DNA of 32,677 bases, taken from the IMG/VR virus record IMGVR_UViG_3300036806_000298, positions 1 through 32,677 of that record; one strand, written 5' to 3'. The notes beneath the pieces are model-generated. The model saw only the letters and a program-made list of their open reading frames with translations, was not told the DNA's origin and made no database searches. Made by a program: the position numbers and the translations under genes. This document shows positions 1 through 23,790 of this stretch, in pieces. Numbering within the stretch: the stretch's first letter is position 1; each line of letters starts with the position of its first letter. Source of the stretch: a virus.

Positions 1-483
1 GAACGGCAGGCCGGTGACGAGCAGCTCCCCATGGACCTGCACTTTGTAGCTCTCCGGCAGCCGGCCCTCGATGAGGTATTCCGCCTGCGCCGCGGCCTGG
101 GGCGCTTTCAATTCGAGTGCGCCCGCGTAGCTGCCTGAATCAGCGACGAGCAATCCATCGGTTGACGAGCAAAATCGTCCGCAGTCGGAGACTGCGAGTC
201 CGATTTGCTCGACCTCGAATTCGGTAAACGATTCGTACCACCGCCGGGCGTGCGGCTCGTTGCGAATGCCTTCGCGCATGGCCTCGCTGATGTACTCGTC
301 GGCCGGCCCCGGCGCCCGGTTCGACATCCGCTCGGCGATCAGTTGGTAGACGTACTTGTCCATCGACCTCGACAACTCACCTTTGACCGGCGTTATGATC
401 TTGTCCATCGAAGACGAGCACGGCAGGCCCCTTCGAGCCAACCACCATTCCGGGCTTTTTTGCGGCATCTTGAGGATTTTCAC
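1..483 (-). CDS. YqaJ-type viral recombinase/exonuclease, 3' end cut by the window edge
   Basis: A 161-codon reading frame, open to the left edge, carries the layout of YqaJ/lambda-exonuclease nucleases (PD-(D/E)XK fold). Seen: SPEWWLARR near residues 10-18; a helix with NEPHARRWYE (Glu76); STDGLL with Asp109; ALELKAP with Glu124-x-Lys126; and KVQVHGELLVTG with Gln149. These are the metal-binding and catalytic positions of the family. By family knowledge, such enzymes degrade one strand of duplex DNA from ends and hand single strands to an annealing partner, here the ERF gene just upstream. The start is taken as GTG at 483, overlapping the ERF stop as GTGA and preceded by a purine-rich GGCGGGAA; the ATG at 468 is the alternative. 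The C-terminus lies outside the window, so total length is unknown. Confidence 0.88.
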   Translation of the reverse strand, partial: MKILKMPQKSPEWWLARRGLPCSSSMDKIITPVKGELSRSMDKYVYQLIAERMSNRAPGPADEYISEAMREGIRNEPHARRWYESFTEFEVEQIGLAVSDCGRFCSSTDGLLVADSGSYAGALELKAPQAAAQAEYLIEGRLPESYKVQVHGELLVTGLPF

Positions 484-1283
484 TTCCCGCCTGCCTTTCG
501 CGCCTTGGCGTTCTTGAGCTTGAACGTCAAGTTTTCCATGCCCGGCCCGTAGCGATCCTGCGGAGAATGAGCGAGCGTCCGGTCGCCGCGTTCTTCACCC
601 TTTTCGAGGCCGAGCATGAAAGCCAAAAACTTCGTTTCATCGAACGGGGCGCCGAGTTCGCGAATCTCGGAAATCAGTTCGTTCATCGATTCGATTTGAG
701 TACTCGTCAGCAGTTCGCCGCCGGACTCGGCGCTGCCGTCATTGTCCTCGTCGGCGACCGTCAGATTGAAAACCAAATACAGTAGGTAACGGCGCCCGTA
801 GGAATCGGTCGATCCTTCTGCCTGGATCGGCGTCATTGCGAGTTGACCGCCTTGCGGTCCTTTGCCGAGGTCTGGCGTCAGGTCTCGCCAATACGATTTC
901 ACGTGACCGAGTTCGTGCGTCACTTCCGCGACGATTCGGATTTTGCCAGGCAGTGACGCCTGCCCTTCCGTGAACGAAACGGAAAATCCCTCTTCGGTGT
1001 AAACCGGGACGATCGCCGCGTTGACCGTTTCGAGCTTGGGATAACGCGACCTGGTGTTTTTGTTTATCGCGTCGCGAACGATCGCCGGCAAACGCTGCTG
1101 GCAACGCACCATGGCCGCCGCGAAGGCTTCGATCGCCTGCATCTTTTTCCAGTGTTCGGCCATGTCCATCATCTTGCCGAGCGCTACGACGTCCGTTCCC
1201 CGCTCGATCATCTTGTCGAGCAACGGAAACGGATTGTCCACGCGCACCAACGGCAGTTCGGCGGGTTCTTTTTGGTCAGACAT
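480..1283 (-). CDS. erf: ERF-family single-strand DNA annealing protein
   Basis: 267 aa. The ERF (essential recombination function) signature is clear. It has an N-terminal helical stretch (LDKMIERGTDVVAL), then an AIEAFAAAMVRCQQRLPAI segment, the SRYPKLETVNAAIVPVYTEEGFSVSF core, and the QAEGSTDSYGRRYLLY motif followed by the acidic ADEDNDG. ERF proteins form rings that anneal complementary single strands during phage recombination and genome circularisation. The acidic, lower-complexity C-terminus is also usual. The ATG at 1283 was chosen because GAGGGCGACCTC precedes it and it overlaps the upstream stop by 8 bases; an upstream in-frame ATG at 1421 would extend deep into the neighbour. Translationally coupled to the exonuclease at its 3' end, it makes a two-gene recombination module. 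Confidence 0.92.
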   Translation of the reverse strand: MSDQKEPAELPLVRVDNPFPLLDKMIERGTDVVALGKMMDMAEHWKKMQAIEAFAAAMVRCQQRLPAIVRDAINKNTRSRYPKLETVNAAIVPVYTEEGFSVSFTEGQASLPGKIRIVAEVTHELGHVKSYWRDLTPDLGKGPQGGQLAMTPIQAEGSTDSYGRRYLLYLVFNLTVADEDNDGSAESGGELLTSTQIESMNELISEIRELGAPFDETKFLAFMLGLEKGEERGDRTLAHSPQDRYGPGMENLTFKLKNAKARKAGGK

Positions 1284-6849: not shown

Positions 6850-7182
6850 ATGATTCGCCAAGTTATTTGGAAGAACCGTTTGGTGAAGATGCTCGATTTC
6901 AAGACGTGGGAGATGTCGCGGATTGGGGAACACGACGATTTCGACTACATGAGTGATCGAGAGCCGGCAACGCGGGCCGTTGCCGGAAGCCAGGCGCGAA
7001 ATATCGACGACGAAGCTCGTTACGTAGACGACGTTATCGAGGATTTGTTTATTTTGGACGAAGATCGGCTTGTTTTTGTCGTGAAAGACGGGTTTTGGGT
7101 TCTTCGTGGCGATCCGTGCGTCGATGGGAGTCTTTCGTTTCAAGAGGACGATCCAAGAGCGATTGGCGGTGATTTATGCTGA
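6850..7182 (+). CDS. Small acidic protein, function unknown
   Basis: 110 aa. AGGGGA lies a few bases before the ATG at 6850, 7 bases after the previous stop. The N-terminus (MIRQVIWKNRLVKMLDFK) is basic and hydrophobic; the rest is strongly acidic with a beta-like stretch (DEDRLVFVVKDGFWVLRGD). No family recognised. Confidence 0.6.
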   Translation: MIRQVIWKNRLVKMLDFKTWEMSRIGEHDDFDYMSDREPATRAVAGSQARNIDDEARYVDDVIEDLFILDEDRLVFVVKDGFWVLRGDPCVDGSLSFQEDDPRAIGGDLC

Positions 7183-8375: not shown

Positions 8376-10229
8376 ATGGAATGGTTTCAGAGAGTCCCGA
8401 AGTCGCTTCACGACAATCTGCGGTTCCGCGAGATGCTTTATCTGCGGGCCGAACTCGATAAGGGACTCCAGCAGGGACTCAGGGACGTCTGCCGGGAAGA
8501 TATCTTGTTTTGGACGAATGCCTTTCTTTGGACCTACGATCCCAGGCTCGTTCAAAAGAAAGTCCCCTTCATCACTTACGAATTCCAGGACGACGGCATT
8601 TGCGCCATTCGGCAGGCGGTCATCGACGGCAAGAAGATCGTCGTCAAGAAATCGCGCGACATGGGCGCTTCCTGGCAAATGTTGGTCGTCTTCGATCACT
8701 TTTGCTCGTTCGAGACGGACTGCAATTTCTTTGTTATGAGCCGCAACAAGAAAATGGTCGATGCGCCGCGCGACCCGTTCAGTTTGTTCTGGAAGGTCGA
8801 TGAGATGCACCGCATGATGCCGCGCTGGCTCCGGCCGAACATCGAGCAGACGACGCACGGTCAGAGAAAGCAGCTCGAAATCAACTATCTGGATACGGGT
8901 TCTTTGATGACGGGCGGCGCCACGGTCAAGGCCGCCGCGATGGGCGGGCGCTGCACCGCCATCGGCGTGGACGAATTCTCCCTCTTCGAGATCATCAACG
9001 CGACCAGAATCAAATCCGGCCTGTCGGACGTTTCGAATTGCATCGTGTGGCCGTTCACGCGCAGCCCGGCCGGCATTCATCACCCTTCCAACGAGTTGAT
9101 CGAGTCCGCCGACAAGGGGTTCGTCAGGTGCATCGACCAGCATTGGCGCAAGCACCCGGTCAAGGCCCGCGGTCTGTACCACGTCGATCGTTCGTCCCGA
9201 AGGCTCACGATTATCGACAAGGAATACGTCTTTCCCGACGATTACCCGTTTCAGCTCGACGGCCGCTTTGAATACCACAGTCCGTGGTTCGATGCTTATC
9301 GCAACGAAAAGAACAACGACCGCGAGGTGTCGGAGAACCTCGAATTCGACGACACCATGGGCGGCAATCTCGTCTTCGATCCGATTCGCATCGCCGAATA
9401 TGCGTCGAAAAACGTCCGTTTACCGGACTTGGAGGGCGATCTCGTCTACGATCCGGACACCGGCGCGCCGGGCGACTTCTTCGAGAAGCGCGGCGGCGAC
9501 ATCAAGCTGTGGATGAGCCTCGACGTTCACGGCAAGCCTCCGAAAGTCGATTACGTCGCGGCGGCGGATACGTCGTTGGGATCGGGCAGAACGAATTCGT
9601 GCTTCTCGGCGGTTCGTTCGGATATCGGCGAGAAAGTTCTGGAGTTCGCCACGTGCCGGATGAAGCCGGACAATTTCGCGACGAAGTGCGTGGCGATTTG
9701 CCGCTGGTTGAGCAGCCCTTTGTGTCAAACGCTTTTGGGTTGGGAGAAGCAAGGCCCTGGTGAAACCTTTGGCACGCAGGTCATGACGCTCGCCTATTAC
9801 CCGGTGTACGAGAACGTCATCAACAAAATCGTCGGCGCCCAAAAAAGAAACCCCGGCGTACCCGCTCGGCAGATTCCCGGCCTCTTGGCGACTTACGAAT
9901 CCTCGCTCTACAACGGCACCTTCGTCAATCATTCCAAAGAGGCCCTCGAAGAGACGTTGGAGTTCGAGCATACGCCCTTGGGACCAAAGCACAAAGCCAA
10001 CAGAAACCGCGTCAACGATCCCTCGGGCGCGACTTTGAACCACGGCGACCGCGTGGTCGCGGACGCCATTTGCGAGATGCTTCTCCGGCATCGCGGGCGC
10101 GGCGCGGCGGCCCCCAAGGAAGTCATCCGTCCCGGCTGTCTCGCCTATTTCATGCGCGAGCGCGAGGCGGCCGAAGCTCGCGGCAAGACACTTTTCCCGA
10201 ATTGGGATCGGCGGCGATTCGCGTTATGA
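8376..10229 (+). CDS. terL: Terminase large subunit
   Basis: 617 aa. The ATPase part has a variant Walker A, KKSRDMGASW (residues 91-100), and Walker B CTAIGVDEF with Asp199-Glu200. The RNase H-like nuclease part has VAAADTSLGSG (Asp398), GWEKQGPG (Glu457) and GDRVVADA (Asp558/Asp563). These are the expected ATP-binding and metal-binding residues of phage packaging motors. The enzyme cuts concatemeric DNA and pumps it through the portal into the prohead. AGGGA precedes the ATG at 8376. Its stop lies in the first palindrome of the repeat-rich intergenic block. Among the most secure calls in the window. Confidence 0.95.
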   Translation: MEWFQRVPKSLHDNLRFREMLYLRAELDKGLQQGLRDVCREDILFWTNAFLWTYDPRLVQKKVPFITYEFQDDGICAIRQAVIDGKKIVVKKSRDMGASWQMLVVFDHFCSFETDCNFFVMSRNKKMVDAPRDPFSLFWKVDEMHRMMPRWLRPNIEQTTHGQRKQLEINYLDTGSLMTGGATVKAAAMGGRCTAIGVDEFSLFEIINATRIKSGLSDVSNCIVWPFTRSPAGIHHPSNELIESADKGFVRCIDQHWRKHPVKARGLYHVDRSSRRLTIIDKEYVFPDDYPFQLDGRFEYHSPWFDAYRNEKNNDREVSENLEFDDTMGGNLVFDPIRIAEYASKNVRLPDLEGDLVYDPDTGAPGDFFEKRGGDIKLWMSLDVHGKPPKVDYVAAADTSLGSGRTNSCFSAVRSDIGEKVLEFATCRMKPDNFATKCVAICRWLSSPLCQTLLGWEKQGPGETFGTQVMTLAYYPVYENVINKIVGAQKRNPGVPARQIPGLLATYESSLYNGTFVNHSKEALEETLEFEHTPLGPKHKANRNRVNDPSGATLNHGDRVVADAICEMLLRHRGRGAAAPKEVIRPGCLAYFMREREAAEARGKTLFPNWDRRRFAL

Positions 10230-17781: not shown

Positions 17782-18483
17782 TTGGAATCTTGCCAAAAAG
17801 CCTTCGACATCGAAGGCTTGTCTCTGATGATCGCGACGCCCGTCATTGGAATGCTCGATCCGCGCTGCGCAATGTCGCAAATGGCCACAGTGACGGAACT
17901 TTTGCGACGTGGCATTCCATGCGAATTCGAGATGCTGGTTAGCTGCTCGTTGTTGGAAAAGGCACGCTCGATTATCGTCGAAAAATTTCTGGCGAGCCGC
18001 CACAATCGGTTGTTGATGCTCGACGCGGATCAGACTTTTGCGCCCAAGGATGTGTTGCGGCTCTTAGCGCTTTCAACGGAATTGCCCGTCGTTTGCGGCG
18101 CTTATCCCGCCAAGCTTGATCCGCCGACATTCATGGTGGCGACAGACCGCCAGATTCTTGAACCGGGGCCATTGGGGACTGTAAAAGTGGATGGCGTTGG
18201 CCTCGGTTTTGCAATGTTCGACCGGAGAGTTCTCGTTCAATTGGAGGCCGTGGCTCCCAGGGTCTTCTACGATGGCGATCCGATTTCGCACCCGATGATG
18301 TTTAGCACGTCGATTCGTGAGGACATGCGCTTCATGGGCGAGGACATGACATTCTTCGCGAACGTGCGGTCGCTCGGTTATGACGTCCTAGTCGATCCGT
18401 CTCTCGAAATTGGCCATGTCGGCATGAAAGAGTACAAGGCTCTTCTGCCGGCAACCAAAGAGGTCGAAAGGCACGCCGCATAA
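17782..18483 (+). CDS. GT-A type glycosyltransferase
   Basis: 233 aa. It starts at TTG 17782 with GGGAGA 6 bases upstream; the first ATG (17827) would cut into the fold. Seen: LSLMIATPVIG beta strand, a hydrophobic RLLMLDADQTFAP with Asp81-x-Asp83 (metal/nucleotide-sugar binding), LGFAMFDRRV, and GEDMTFFANVRSLGYDV with GHVG at residues 211-214, the acceptor-side ED and the late His typical of family-2-like GT-A enzymes. Such enzymes transfer a sugar from a nucleotide sugar. In this virion operon it could glycosylate virion proteins or alter the host surface against superinfection. No membrane segment. Confidence 0.8.
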   Translation: MESCQKAFDIEGLSLMIATPVIGMLDPRCAMSQMATVTELLRRGIPCEFEMLVSCSLLEKARSIIVEKFLASRHNRLLMLDADQTFAPKDVLRLLALSTELPVVCGAYPAKLDPPTFMVATDRQILEPGPLGTVKVDGVGLGFAMFDRRVLVQLEAVAPRVFYDGDPISHPMMFSTSIREDMRFMGEDMTFFANVRSLGYDVLVDPSLEIGHVGMKEYKALLPATKEVERHAA

Positions 18484-19641: not shown

Positions 19642-20178
19642 ATGACCGCGGACAATCCCGAGCCGATGTGGAGCGCGCTAATGGCGATCGGAGTCGCCTT
19701 CACGTCTCTCATGACGGTCATCAACAGCTACATGACGCGCAAGGCCGCCAACAGCATCGATACGAAGATCGAGAAAGTCGATACGAAACTCGAAAAGAAC
19801 ACGGAAGTTAGCAATGCCGCTGCGACAAGCTCGGCAAGCGCGGATGAGAAAGCGACCGTCGCCGTCGCCGTTAGCAAAGCGACGAAAGAGGAACTGGCCG
19901 CGAAAGTCGATCATGCGAACGACATGCTCAACGGCCATACGCAAGACTTGATCGAAGCGGCCCGCAAGGCAGCTTACGCGAGCGGCCTCATGGACGGATC
20001 GAAAGTCCAAGAGGTCGTCACCGAGCGAGTTCAAAAACTCGAAGACGGACAAGAGACTTTGCAACAAGGGCATGAAATTTTGAAGCAAGGCCAAGTCGAG
20101 ATCAAAAAAGCGGTCGATAAGAACACGGAAATGGTCAACGTGCTGACGACCGAGATCAAGAAGCAATCCAAATACTGA
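19642..20178 (+). CDS. Membrane-anchored coiled-coil protein; holin- or spanin-like candidate
   Basis: 178 aa, starting MTADNPEPMWSALMAIGVAF. One hydrophobic segment (about residues 9-32) is followed by a long heptad-like coiled coil (DTKIEKVDTKLEKNTEV, QKLEDGQETLQQGHEILKQGQ). GGAGGAGAG is upstream of the ATG. A short N-terminal membrane anchor plus coiled coil fits a lysis accessory such as an i-spanin or antiholin, or a tail-associated protein. The lysis reading is inference from layout next to the peptidase. Confidence 0.5.
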   Translation: MTADNPEPMWSALMAIGVAFTSLMTVINSYMTRKAANSIDTKIEKVDTKLEKNTEVSNAAATSSASADEKATVAVAVSKATKEELAAKVDHANDMLNGHTQDLIEAARKAAYASGLMDGSKVQEVVTERVQKLEDGQETLQQGHEILKQGQVEIKKAVDKNTEMVNVLTTEIKKQSKY

Positions 20179-20188
20179 GAGGCAAGCC

Positions 20189-21409
20189 GTGAAGAAGATT
20201 ATCGCTTGTTTACTATTCCTGTCCGTCTTCGCGGGGTTTCTTCCGGAGGCTCCTACTCAACCCGGCAAGGTTCCGCCGCCGCCGATGTTCCCGCGCGGCG
20301 CCAGGCCGACGCCGTTCCCGAAAATCATCGCCGCCATCAAATCCGAAAAAGCGAAGATTTTCCGGGCGTCGGCGCCGCCGCCGAAGGTGATCGTCGTGCC
20401 GCCGCGACTGAGCTATTGGGGCAACAACCAGTACGGCGATTGCGTCACGGCCGAGAGCGTCTTCGCGATTGCCGGCTATTCGACTTACATCGGCATCGAC
20501 GAGATTTTCGTTACCGATTCGGCGACGACGTCTTGGGCGAACTCGCACGGATTTTTGAACGGGGCCGAGTTGCTCGAAGTGATTCAGGCGATGGGATCGG
20601 ATGGCATCAAAGATGAGAAAGGCACGCTTCGAAAGGCGGGCACGCCGTCTTCGGTCGATTTCAGCGTCGATGCCACTCTGCAATCGGCCATTGCCCAAGG
20701 CCCGGTGTCCATCGCGATTGATTCCAGCGGCCTTCCGTCCGGCGCCGGCAACAAAAGCGGCTTCTACGCTTTCGGCGGCAATTCGCACCGCAACTACGAC
20801 CATTGCGTGAGCTTGTGTGGCTACGGGCCGACTGCCGATCTCTTCAAAGCCCTCAACGTTTCGCCACCGTCGAACGCCCCGGCAGCGGGCTATCTGCTCT
20901 ACACCTGGAGTACGATTGGTGTGGTCGATCACGCCTGGTTGATGGCAAACACGACGGAAGCCTGGGTTCGAAACCCGACGACGACCGGCTTGACCCCGGC
21001 GCCGTCGCCGCCGGGCGCGATCACGGTGTCCATTGCTGATTCGAACGGCGCGATGCAAGTGCCGATGAAGTTCTCGCCGACGGCCTCAGGGGGAGTGTCG
21101 CCGTACATCTTCCTGTTTTCTTACGGCGACGGGATTCAAGACGCCGCAGGCACGCACACCTACGCCGCCGCCGGCTCGTACACCGTCAACGTGTCCGCAG
21201 TTGATAGCAAAGGGCAAGTTGGCCAAGGGACGTGTACCGCGACGGTCGGCACGACGCCGCTTCCGCCGACGCCGGGGCCGACTCCGGCGGGCGCGGGAAC
21301 GATCTCGTGGACCGTCAATGGGCAAACGAGCCAATATGAGCTCTTCCCAGTCGGAAGCAGGGATGCGCTGAAGAAACTTCAAGACCTCATCGGCTCCAGT
21401 TCCAAATAG
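20189..21409 (+). CDS. Secreted papain-like cysteine peptidase with PKD domain
   Basis: 406 aa; GTG start at 20189, with GAGG upstream. Residues 1-20 form a signal peptide (KKIIACLLFLSVFAGFL). A Pro-rich stretch to about 75 precedes a C1-like catalytic domain: WGNNQYGDCVTAES with Gln81 and Cys85 in oxyanion/nucleophile positions, and NYDHCVSLCGYG with His205. Residues about 277-350 form a PKD-like beta domain (FSYGDGIQDAAGTHTYAAAGSYTVNV). The C-terminus ends in a short helical tail (GSRDALKKLQDLIG). Family knowledge: C1 peptidases hydrolyse peptide bonds; PKD domains bind surfaces. It may act on the host envelope during lysis or entry. Catalytic residues are by pattern only; the canonical CGSCW is not present. 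Confidence 0.65.
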   Translation: MKKIIACLLFLSVFAGFLPEAPTQPGKVPPPPMFPRGARPTPFPKIIAAIKSEKAKIFRASAPPPKVIVVPPRLSYWGNNQYGDCVTAESVFAIAGYSTYIGIDEIFVTDSATTSWANSHGFLNGAELLEVIQAMGSDGIKDEKGTLRKAGTPSSVDFSVDATLQSAIAQGPVSIAIDSSGLPSGAGNKSGFYAFGGNSHRNYDHCVSLCGYGPTADLFKALNVSPPSNAPAAGYLLYTWSTIGVVDHAWLMANTTEAWVRNPTTTGLTPAPSPPGAITVSIADSNGAMQVPMKFSPTASGGVSPYIFLFSYGDGIQDAAGTHTYAAAGSYTVNVSAVDSKGQVGQGTCTATVGTTPLPPTPGPTPAGAGTISWTVNGQTSQYELFPVGSRDALKKLQDLIGSSSK

Positions 21410-21416
21410 GTGTTAC

Positions 21417-22163
21417 ATGCTCAAAGAGGCAGCCGCGTCTTACCGACCCGTCTTCAAAAGGCAGACTCCCGCATGGGTGCGATGGCTTGGCGGCCGAGAA
21501 AATCACGGCGAATATCGCGCACGCTGGGGCAGCATGGCGACTGATCGTTGTCAATTCGCTCTGCAGCTTTGCCTCTTTGAAGACGGTTATTCGCTCAATT
21601 TGGCTTTTCTCTGGCTCGCGGTCTACATCAATCTGCCGTTCCTGCGGCGATGGGTGCGCGACCCCGAAGAGATAATGGAATCGTGGGGCGCATCCTACAG
21701 CATGGAGTACGGCATCCATATGCGGTGGGCGCGGCGGTATAAGTTCATCGTCATGCCCTGGCGGAACTGGGAGCAAATATCGCACGACGTCTTGCGCCCG
21801 GATGGAAGGTGGGTGCCGTTCGTAGGCTCGTGGGAAGAAAGTCAAGACCATCGACTAGGCGGCAAGGAACCGGATGGGCGGCACGTCGAGACGCACCCCT
21901 ATAAGTACATGCTGTCGTCCGGCGAAGTCCAAGAACGGACAGCGACCGTTCATGCCGAGCGTCGTATTCGCCGCTTGAAGTGGCTATGGTGGACGTCGCT
22001 CTTTCAACGAGTCACACACGCCATCGACGTGTCTTTTAGCGACGAAGTCGGCGATCGATCAGGTTCGTGGAAGGGCGGTTGCATCGGATGCGGTTGGGAA
22101 TTGAAGCCCGACGAGACCATCGAGTGCTGCTTGAAAAGAATGGAACGGGAACGAAAATTCTGA
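21417..22163 (+). CDS. Widespread phage protein of unknown function
   Basis: 248 aa, starting MLKEAAASYRPVFKRQ. It has a WGASYSMEYGIHMRW region and a C-terminal part (ERTATVHAERRIRRLKWLWW; then DVSFSDEVGDRSGSWKGGC, IGCGWELKPDETIECCLKR) that I recognise from hypothetical proteins of many unrelated phages. The two CxxC-like Cys pairs near the end may bind metal. The ATG at 21417 lies 7 bases after the peptidase stop. Beyond its stop is a remnant of a second peptidase end, so it may be a recent insertion. Confidence 0.6.
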   Translation: MLKEAAASYRPVFKRQTPAWVRWLGGRENHGEYRARWGSMATDRCQFALQLCLFEDGYSLNLAFLWLAVYINLPFLRRWVRDPEEIMESWGASYSMEYGIHMRWARRYKFIVMPWRNWEQISHDVLRPDGRWVPFVGSWEESQDHRLGGKEPDGRHVETHPYKYMLSSGEVQERTATVHAERRIRRLKWLWWTSLFQRVTHAIDVSFSDEVGDRSGSWKGGCIGCGWELKPDETIECCLKRMERERKF

Positions 22164-22692: not shown

Positions 22693-22908
22693 ATGGCTTG
22701 GCTCAATGCAAGCGGCAACCCGGTCAAAATGGCTCCGGTGACGATTCAGTTGGACCTTCCTGCCGAGCAATCCGTCAACGTGGGCACTCCCAATTGGGCC
22801 GCCGTGCTCGGCGCGGGAATCCAGTTGATGCTCGCGATGATGACGGGCAATTCGGCGGGCATCGCGGCGGCTATCCAGGCGCTTATCAGCGCTTTTATGG
22901 GCGTCTGA
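22693..22908 (+). CDS. Small membrane protein, holin-like candidate
   Basis: 71 aa, starting MAWLNASGNPVKMAPVTIQL. Residues about 33-71 are hydrophobic (NWAAVLGAGIQLMLAMMTGN, then SAGIAAAIQALISAFMGV), enough for one or two membrane segments. AGGAG lies 8 bases before the ATG. Size and topology are holin-like but not diagnostic. The stop lies in the base of the hairpin at 22907-22932. Confidence 0.5.
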   Translation: MAWLNASGNPVKMAPVTIQLDLPAEQSVNVGTPNWAAVLGAGIQLMLAMMTGNSAGIAAAIQALISAFMGV

Positions 22909-22932
22909 GCATCTCCTTTTCAGGAGATGCTC
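22907..22932 (+). terminator. Perfect 10-bp hairpin after the small membrane gene
   Basis: GAGCATCTCC (22907-22916), 6-base loop TTTTCA, GGAGATGCTC (22923-22932), all ten pairs. The stem starts inside the stop codon. No U tract follows (TGCAAAAATC), so it may stabilise the RNA rather than terminate it. Confidence 0.45.
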
Positions 22933-22995
22933 TGCAAAAATCGAGCAAATAATGCGGTTTGTCGATGTCCGTTTCCATCCCCAGGAGTGATTCGC

Positions 22996-23187
22996 ATGAA
23001 GCTTTTCGCGTCCCTTTTCGTCTTCGCCATCGCTGCCGGGTCGGCGTTCGGCCAATGCGCCGCCGTGTCGTCCTGTCAGGCTTCGGCCTGCGCGCCACCG
23101 CAAGCGTCGGCTTGCTCCAGTTCGGCCGCTCCGCAGGCGCGCCGACCGATTTTCAATCGTCCTCGCATCATTTTCCGCCGGAGGTAA
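22996..23187 (+). CDS. Small secreted Cys-rich protein
   Basis: 63 aa, starting MKLFASLFVFAIAAGSAFGQ. Classic signal peptide with a cleavage site after AFG; the mature part is rich in Cys, Ala, Ser and Pro (CAAVSSCQASACAPPQASAC) and ends in a basic tail (RPRIIFRRR). AGGAGTG precedes the ATG. Six Cys in the mature peptide suggest disulfides or metal binding. Could be a lysis accessory; no family recognised. Confidence 0.55.
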   Translation: MKLFASLFVFAIAAGSAFGQCAAVSSCQASACAPPQASACSSSAAPQARRPIFNRPRIIFRRR

Positions 23188-23196
23188 GCCATCAGG

Positions 23197-23233
23197 AAAT
23201 TCCCCTGAGTCAGGTGACTCACCTGACAGTTTT
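23197..23233 (+). repeat. Right copy of the 30-bp inverted repeat, with terminator-like stem
   Basis: 23197-23226 is the partner of 6033-6062 (one mismatch, opposite orientation). In the sense strand, GTCAGGTG (23209-23216), ACT, CACCTGAC (23220-23227) form an 8-bp hairpin followed by AGTTTT, which could act as an intrinsic terminator. An alternative fold pairs TGAGTCA with TGACTCA (23206-23221). Confidence 0.65.
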
Positions 23234-23244
23234 GGAGACAGGCC

Positions 23245-23445
23245 ATGCCTCATTTTTGGCCGAGTGCTTGGAGTTTCGGCGACCTCGCGATCTTTATCGT
23301 GATGGTCGCCGCCGTCGTCGCCCTTGTTTACGTCGCGCTCCGCAAGTTCGGAGCCGCGATCCCGGATTGGGTCCAGCAAATTTTCTGGATCCTCGTCGTT
23401 GCATTCGTCGTCATCCTTGCAATCCGCTTCGTGATGTCGATGTGA
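23245..23445 (+). CDS. Two-helix small membrane protein, holin candidate
   Basis: 66 aa, starting MPHFWPSAWSFGDLAIFIVM. Two clear membrane segments (about 13-32 and 44-62) with a short positively charged turn (LRKFGAAIPDW) between them: the layout of class II holins. GGAG lies 7-8 bases before the ATG. Holins time lysis by making membrane pores. The call is by topology only; another small membrane protein lies 550 bases upstream. Confidence 0.5.
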   Translation: MPHFWPSAWSFGDLAIFIVMVAAVVALVYVALRKFGAAIPDWVQQIFWILVVAFVVILAIRFVMSM

Positions 23446-23454
23446 GGCCGTGCC

Positions 23455-23790
23455 ATGAAGTTTGAATTCACCCTGAACGCGAACCTCTATCATCACAATG
23501 TTGACTTGCTGGAGGTTCACAAAACCCTGGAGAAGATCATGAGCGCCATTTCCGATTTCGCCGCCAAGGTAACGGCCCATCAAGACGCGGAGGACGCGGC
23601 CATCGCGGGCCTGACCGCCGACGTGCAAAACCTCAACGATCAGATTACCGCCCTGCAAAACTCTCAAGGCGGCATCACGCCTGCCGATCAAGCCCTACTC
23701 GACGGCATTGAGTCTCGCGGGCAAGTCATCGCCGACAAGCTCGCGGCGCTCGACGCTCTGACGCCGCCCGTCGCGCCGCCGGCCCCGTGA
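23455..23790 (+). CDS. Coiled-coil phage protein, function unknown
   Basis: 111 aa, starting MKFEFTLNANLYHHN. A long heptad region (SAISDFAAKVTAHQDAEDAA, GLTADVQNLNDQITALQNSQ) is followed by a Pro/Ala tail (LTPPVAPPAP). This kind of short coiled-coil protein with AHQDAEDAA and a Pro-rich end recurs in phage tail regions; trimerisation is likely. An internal ATG at 23539 (MSAISDF) could be a second start. Confidence 0.6.
   Translation: MKFEFTLNANLYHHNVDLLEVHKTLEKIMSAISDFAAKVTAHQDAEDAAIAGLTADVQNLNDQITALQNSQGGITPADQALLDGIESRGQVIADKLAALDALTPPVAPPAP

Follow-up and report, generated by a model that had tools for sequence, protein, structure and literature searches.

The gene at 20189-21409 of the window (the whole stretch of DNA that was analyzed, 32,677 bases long and recorded in IMG/VR as a linear virus sequence) is, on balance, likely to encode a secreted papain-fold (C1A-like) cysteine peptidase that works in a phage lysis cassette. 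Its assignment as a lysis-cassette enzyme is the most likely one because of the membrane-protein neighbors seen in its family, the cell-wall hydrolases beside a sister family, and a block of small proteins that recurs beside it, and the peptidase probably helps to break open the host cell.

Domains, fold, and active site of the peptidase

The open reading frame starts with GTG at 20189, after GAGAGG, ends with the stop at 21409, and has a strong codon score; our home-made gene caller chose an internal ATG, at 20285, as the start. Because the N-termini of the sister sequences L004, L060, L055, and L002 are hydrophobic too, the signal peptide was taken as real. The gene has the following features.

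20189..21409, plus strand: exported papain-fold cysteine peptidase with a C-terminal PKD domain, 406 aa
20189..20257, plus strand: signal peptide, about residues 1-23, sequence MKKIIACLLFLSVFAGFLPEA, with a hydrophobic segment at 1-19
20294..20974, plus strand: conserved N-terminal RGA motif (RGA-x-PTP) and papain-fold domain, residues 36-262, from the alignment, the model, and Foldseek
20423..20443, plus strand: N79-x5-C85, candidate oxyanion residue and nucleophile, at the papain Gln19/Cys25 positions
20798..20806, plus strand: D204-H205-C206, catalytic His by position, at papain His159 in the alignments
20903..20908, plus strand: T239-W240, where papain has Asn175-Ser-Trp, with no catalytic Asn
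21029..21241, plus strand: PKD domain, residues 281-351 (PF18911, E=1.3e-6)

The preliminary description of this DNA had named an exported C1-like peptidase with a PKD domain, and that picture was borne out by the signal peptide, the papain fold (E=4.7e-9, see below), and the PKD match, which at 28.8 bits exceeds the PF18911 gathering cut-off of 27. Its view of the PKD domain as a surface binder did not extend to the family, in which PKD is an occasional add-on found in three members (the window and L004 by Pfam, L060 by eye from similar sequence); the other members have Pro-rich linkers, amphipathic helices, Ig-like domains, or trypsin domains instead, or no add-on at all. We also identified a single protein, at 1917-3707 of L069, in which the papain-like domain is joined to a membrane segment and to a trypsin-like peptidase domain (Trypsin_2, E=3.4e-9).

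The match of the window's protein to Peptidase_C1 (PF00112) lies below the Pfam gathering cut-off (E=0.06, 13.9 bits vs 20.7), and a profile of 16 relatives reached cathepsin L at E=3.8e-5, with DHC205 aligned to the papain-family DH. For the catalytic domain, AlphaFold2 gave a pLDDT of 89 and a pTM of 0.89 on the 16-relative alignment; from the single sequence, pLDDT was 34. Searched with the domain model, Foldseek returned cathepsins and papains as the top PDB matches (cathepsin L, E=4.7e-9; TM 0.57-0.63), and the best 50 of the 227 PDB matches at E<=0.001 were all papain-family enzymes. As read off the secondary structure of the predicted model, Cys85 is at the start of the long helix and His205 is on the strand expected for it, the positions occupied by the Cys and His of papain, so that the Cys85/His205 geometry, which had been put forward for checking by structure prediction, appears to fit papain.

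Papain Asn175 and the oxyanion Gln19 are not kept in the alignments; the former position holds Tyr/Phe, followed by a near-invariant Thr-Trp, and the latter holds Asn79. Such replacements would suit a papain-fold binding protein that is catalytically inert, but this reading is highly improbable given the conservation of the remaining residues. Conservation of the Cys was judged with a His-motif search, which avoids the bias of Cys-motif searching and in which 29/29 matches were members of the peptidase family. C85 and N79 (Cys-6) were invariant, as was the His, in all 25 distinct sequences fetched in this way that cover the Cys, 19 of them from new phages.

Relatives of the peptidase

Close relatives of the peptidase came from environmental virus contigs and from three bacterial contigs; searches of INPHARED and PLSDB returned no close relative, and no full-length model for the family's catalytic domain was found in Pfam, PHROGs, or NCBIfam. 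This phage peptidase family is apparently large and uncatalogued. Profile comparison linked it (98.9% probability) to a sister family with the motifs GNDQYGDC ... GGH ... TWG, which occurs commonly in viral contigs; one motif gave 90 relatives, of which 80 were kept. In the tree, the signal-bearing window sequence forms a supported group with L004, L060, L055, and L002, and a separate branch holds the cellular homologues and the lysozyme-bearing phages. Most members beyond the signal-bearing group have no signal peptide, and export through an own signal peptide is not general in the family.

The bacterial homologues (Acidobacteria, Granulicella, and Mucilaginibacter) have ordinary chromosomal settings and lack a signal peptide (3/3). 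Homologues in Acidobacteria and Mucilaginibacter chromosomes, the movement of the gene among otherwise unrelated phages, and the variety of C-terminal add-ons are all consistent with an exported cargo or entry enzyme, a mobile and perhaps bacterial gene that would serve in surface remodeling, superinfection block, or adsorption and whose position near lysis genes would have other causes. We consider this explanation unlikely, as the cellular homologues are confined to one phage-rich tree branch and as both the enrichment of membrane genes in an independent set of phages and the cell-wall hydrolases beside the sister family (described below) argue against it.

Neighborhood of the peptidase gene

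Early genes lie at the left of the window, for the most part on the minus strand, and the late module is on the plus strand. The late genes and the small genes around the peptidase are as follows.

8376, plus strand: terminase, late module
10601, plus strand: portal, late module
14137, plus strand: capsid protein, late module
16106, plus strand: adaptor, late module
19642..20178, plus strand: single-TM and coiled-coil protein, holin- or i-spanin-like, just 5' of the peptidase, without a family match
22693..22908, plus strand: 71-aa amphipathic-helix protein with homologues directly 3' of the peptidase in L004 and L060 (phmmer 9e-13 and 9e-19)
22996-23187: small Cys-rich, Arg-ending exported protein with a signal, near the peptidase
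23245..23445, plus strand: 66-aa two-TM protein, class-II-holin-like, with a homologue in L009 (phmmer 7e-9)
23455..23790, plus strand: 111-aa coiled-coil protein of the 22693-23790 block, with a homologue near the peptidase in L004 (phmmer 2e-34)
From 23879, plus strand: tail genes, late module

Several small membrane proteins had been noted near the peptidase, and the genes at 19642-20178, 22996-23187 (signal), and 23245-23445 agree with this. The L009 homologue of 23245-23445 lies directly downstream and overlaps the peptidase stop. The L004 contig otherwise has little in common with the window, and the peptidase and the block at 22693-23790 have relatives in phage G003, the other genes of which are mostly unrelated. 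As small-gene homologues occur beside the peptidase in otherwise dissimilar phages, the peptidase and the small genes travel together. Apart from the peptidase block, a pair of genes at 1-1283 (minus strand) is among the few window genes common to G003; the first is perhaps YqaJ, and the second aligns with the gene placed at the ERF recombinase match of G003.

Within the late module, 17782-18483 is possibly a glycosyltransferase-like gene (Pfam E=0.16 only). The gene at 21417-22163, immediately 3' of the peptidase, has a Pfam Acb3 match (CBASS inhibitor, PF25187, E=2.5e-44) and is about 35% identical to genes that lack annotation in phages of Vibrio, Sulfitobacter, and Caulobacter; it is likely an anti-defence gene. 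L005 encodes, at 6854-7090, a small exported Cys-rich, Arg-ending protein near the peptidase that resembles the window's 22996-23187, and a search for homologues of these two small proteins found none. A host among the Planctomycetes would be no more than a guess from the small Cys-rich exported proteins.

Enrichment was evaluated for small proteins with an N-terminal membrane segment encoded within two genes of the peptidase, a class that takes in holin-like, coiled-coil, lipoprotein, or signal-bearing genes (the TM test counts signal peptides too) and that was drawn from the calls of the home-made gene caller. In the first set, such a small membrane or exported gene lay within two genes in 9/13 phages, with 3.5 expected (p=0.0007), a test that was not blind, since the definition was set after viewing those loci; on its own, the test for a gene directly upstream did not reach significance (3 vs 1.0 expected, p=0.07). 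The second set comprised 18 phages that were retrieved once the test had been defined, with a same-strand rule added, and here 17 of the 18 had such a gene within two genes (6.4 expected, p<5e-5) and 10 had one directly upstream (1.95 expected, p<5e-5). For the sister family, the corresponding counts were 41/70 (23.1 expected) and 16/70 (7.2 expected). Moreover, 16 of 137 sister-family neighbors were cell-wall hydrolases by Pfam, compared with 2 of 148 control genes from the same contigs (Fisher p=3e-4); the 16 were GH25, Rv2525c-type GH, phage lysozyme, CHAP, glucosaminidase, and GH108, and the two controls were SLT. In the annotated phage MW202816, the sister-family gene overlaps an amidase gene.

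In L005, L011, and L013, the gene lies between those for the portal and the major capsid protein, where a capsid maturation (prohead) protease might be sought. We judge that role extremely unlikely: the window and sister sequences have a signal peptide, the fold is C1A-like, and the gene position is variable, since in the window and in L002 the gene follows genes of the tail region.

Directly 3' of the peptidase, a membrane or exported thioredoxin-fold protein is encoded in L003 (10743-11558, by Pfam) and in L012 (10840-11187, by sequence motif), an arrangement that would fit a thiol enzyme acting outside the cytoplasm. Immediately 5' of the peptidase, L002 has a cupredoxin-like gene at 9552-9824 (a weak match, under the Pfam cut-off).

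Endolysins, known lytic enzymes, and the proposed role

Consistent with the preliminary description, which saw no recognizable endolysin in the window, none of the endolysin families tested was found within the 32,677-base linear record, and no known lytic enzyme was recognized there. Neither the window nor nine relatives had a match to Amidase_2, M15_4, SLT, Phage_lysozyme, Amidase_3, or NlpC/P60. Twenty further family records gave Amidase_2 in 0/20 and Phage_lysozyme in 1/20, the latter in the record of L064, where a phage lysozyme (GH24) is two genes from the peptidase. In three long relatives (64-79 kb, contigs that may be partial), no lysis family was among the Pfam matches listed, which cover the called ORFs that lie whole within 20-kb pieces and, for one relative, the best 25 of 34 families. 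Across the records searched from the window's own clade, no canonical endolysin was found. The absence of GH24 and Amidase_2 is by itself weak evidence, because it is common among the sister-family phages too (GH24 in 3/42, Amidase_2 in 0/42).

A related pair of lysozyme-like genes without a Pfam match was observed near the peptidase in L051 (8351-8767, minus strand) and L065 (5902-6288, minus strand), the label coming from our reading of an AEGFG...NNPGD motif. That the peptidase always replaces an endolysin was dropped as an explanation, as L064 has GH24 and L051 and L065 have the lysozyme-like gene. The earlier suggestion that the peptidase could stand in for an endolysin survives in part: the lysis-cassette neighborhoods, the active-site geometry, and the lack of a canonical endolysin in the searched records of its clade favor it, and the lysozyme or lysozyme-like genes in these three phages count against it.

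The same genes bear on a reading that we regard as quite possible, namely, that the peptidase is an accessory lysis protease that only assists, for example, by cleaving envelope proteins, the ordinary endolysin being off the contig or too diverged. Because the record is linear, the window may be incomplete and an endolysin may lie outside it; the sister family often adjoins a muramidase, and the domain is fused to a trypsin-like protease in L069. Against this, neither GH24 nor Amidase_2 occurs in any searched record of the window's own clade, and no lysis family is among the Pfam matches listed for G003 and G005.

If the peptidase does act in lysis, its signal peptide would route it through the host Sec system late in infection. 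The holin-like proteins would damage and depolarize the membrane, and, after or together with them, the peptidase would cut envelope peptides, whether in peptidoglycan cross-links or in proteins. In this phage it may do most of the envelope degradation, because no other such enzyme was recognized, and in the lysozyme-bearing relatives it could be the second of two enzymes, the one that cuts peptides. Regarding the substrate, the papain-type fold and the trypsin-like fusion of L069 lean toward protein, and the muramidase neighbors lean toward peptidoglycan. That a C1A-type protease is the sole lytic enzyme here and in the signal-bearing relatives, opening the host by envelope proteolysis and not by cleavage of peptidoglycan glycans or amides, seems decidedly unlikely.

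Lytic cysteine peptidases have been described for other viruses. The pseudomurein endoisopeptidases PeiW and PeiP (C71; cited in PMC10318531) are cysteine peptidases with which archaeal viruses lyse their hosts; they are viral and lytic as proposed here, but their substrate is pseudomurein, and the likeness is one of description only. The window's peptidase resembles MEROPS C1A/Pfam PF00112 enzymes in its fold, its Cys-helix and His-strand layout, and a GYG motif after the His; it differs in falling under the Pfam cut-off, in lacking Asn175 and Gln19, and in being phage-borne and linked to a lysis cassette. The CHAP, NlpC/P60, and Amidase_5 endolysin domains are papain-like cysteine enzymes that cut peptidoglycan (PMC10318531, PMC8586454), whereas the peptidase has no Pfam match to them, its nearest structures are cathepsins, and no known peptidoglycan-hydrolase domain was found in the protein. 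Mycobacteriophage endolysins include papain-family N5 domains, some without any glycosidase or amidase (PMC3314691), and in Gordonia phage RedRaider, lysin A is divided between two genes, one for a C39 protease and one for a glycosyl hydrolase, with TM genes after them (PMC12821328). RedRaider gp55, the lysin A protease C39 (N5), is thus likewise a stand-alone papain-like gene beside glycosyl hydrolase and TM genes (PMC12821328, PMC3314691), but the actinobacteriophage C39 (N5) lysins have no signal peptide or PKD and belong to phages of other hosts, and profile comparison detected no homology to the RedRaider domain (hhalign probability below 1%). On present evidence, the peptidase family may work, by analogy, like these papain-type lysins.

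Many environmental phages have no recognizable endolysin, and this peptidase family is a concrete candidate for them. Annotators could use it to locate lysis cassettes in phages whose hosts are soil bacteria with few cultured representatives, and opening of the envelope by a protease could prove to be a new lytic chemistry.
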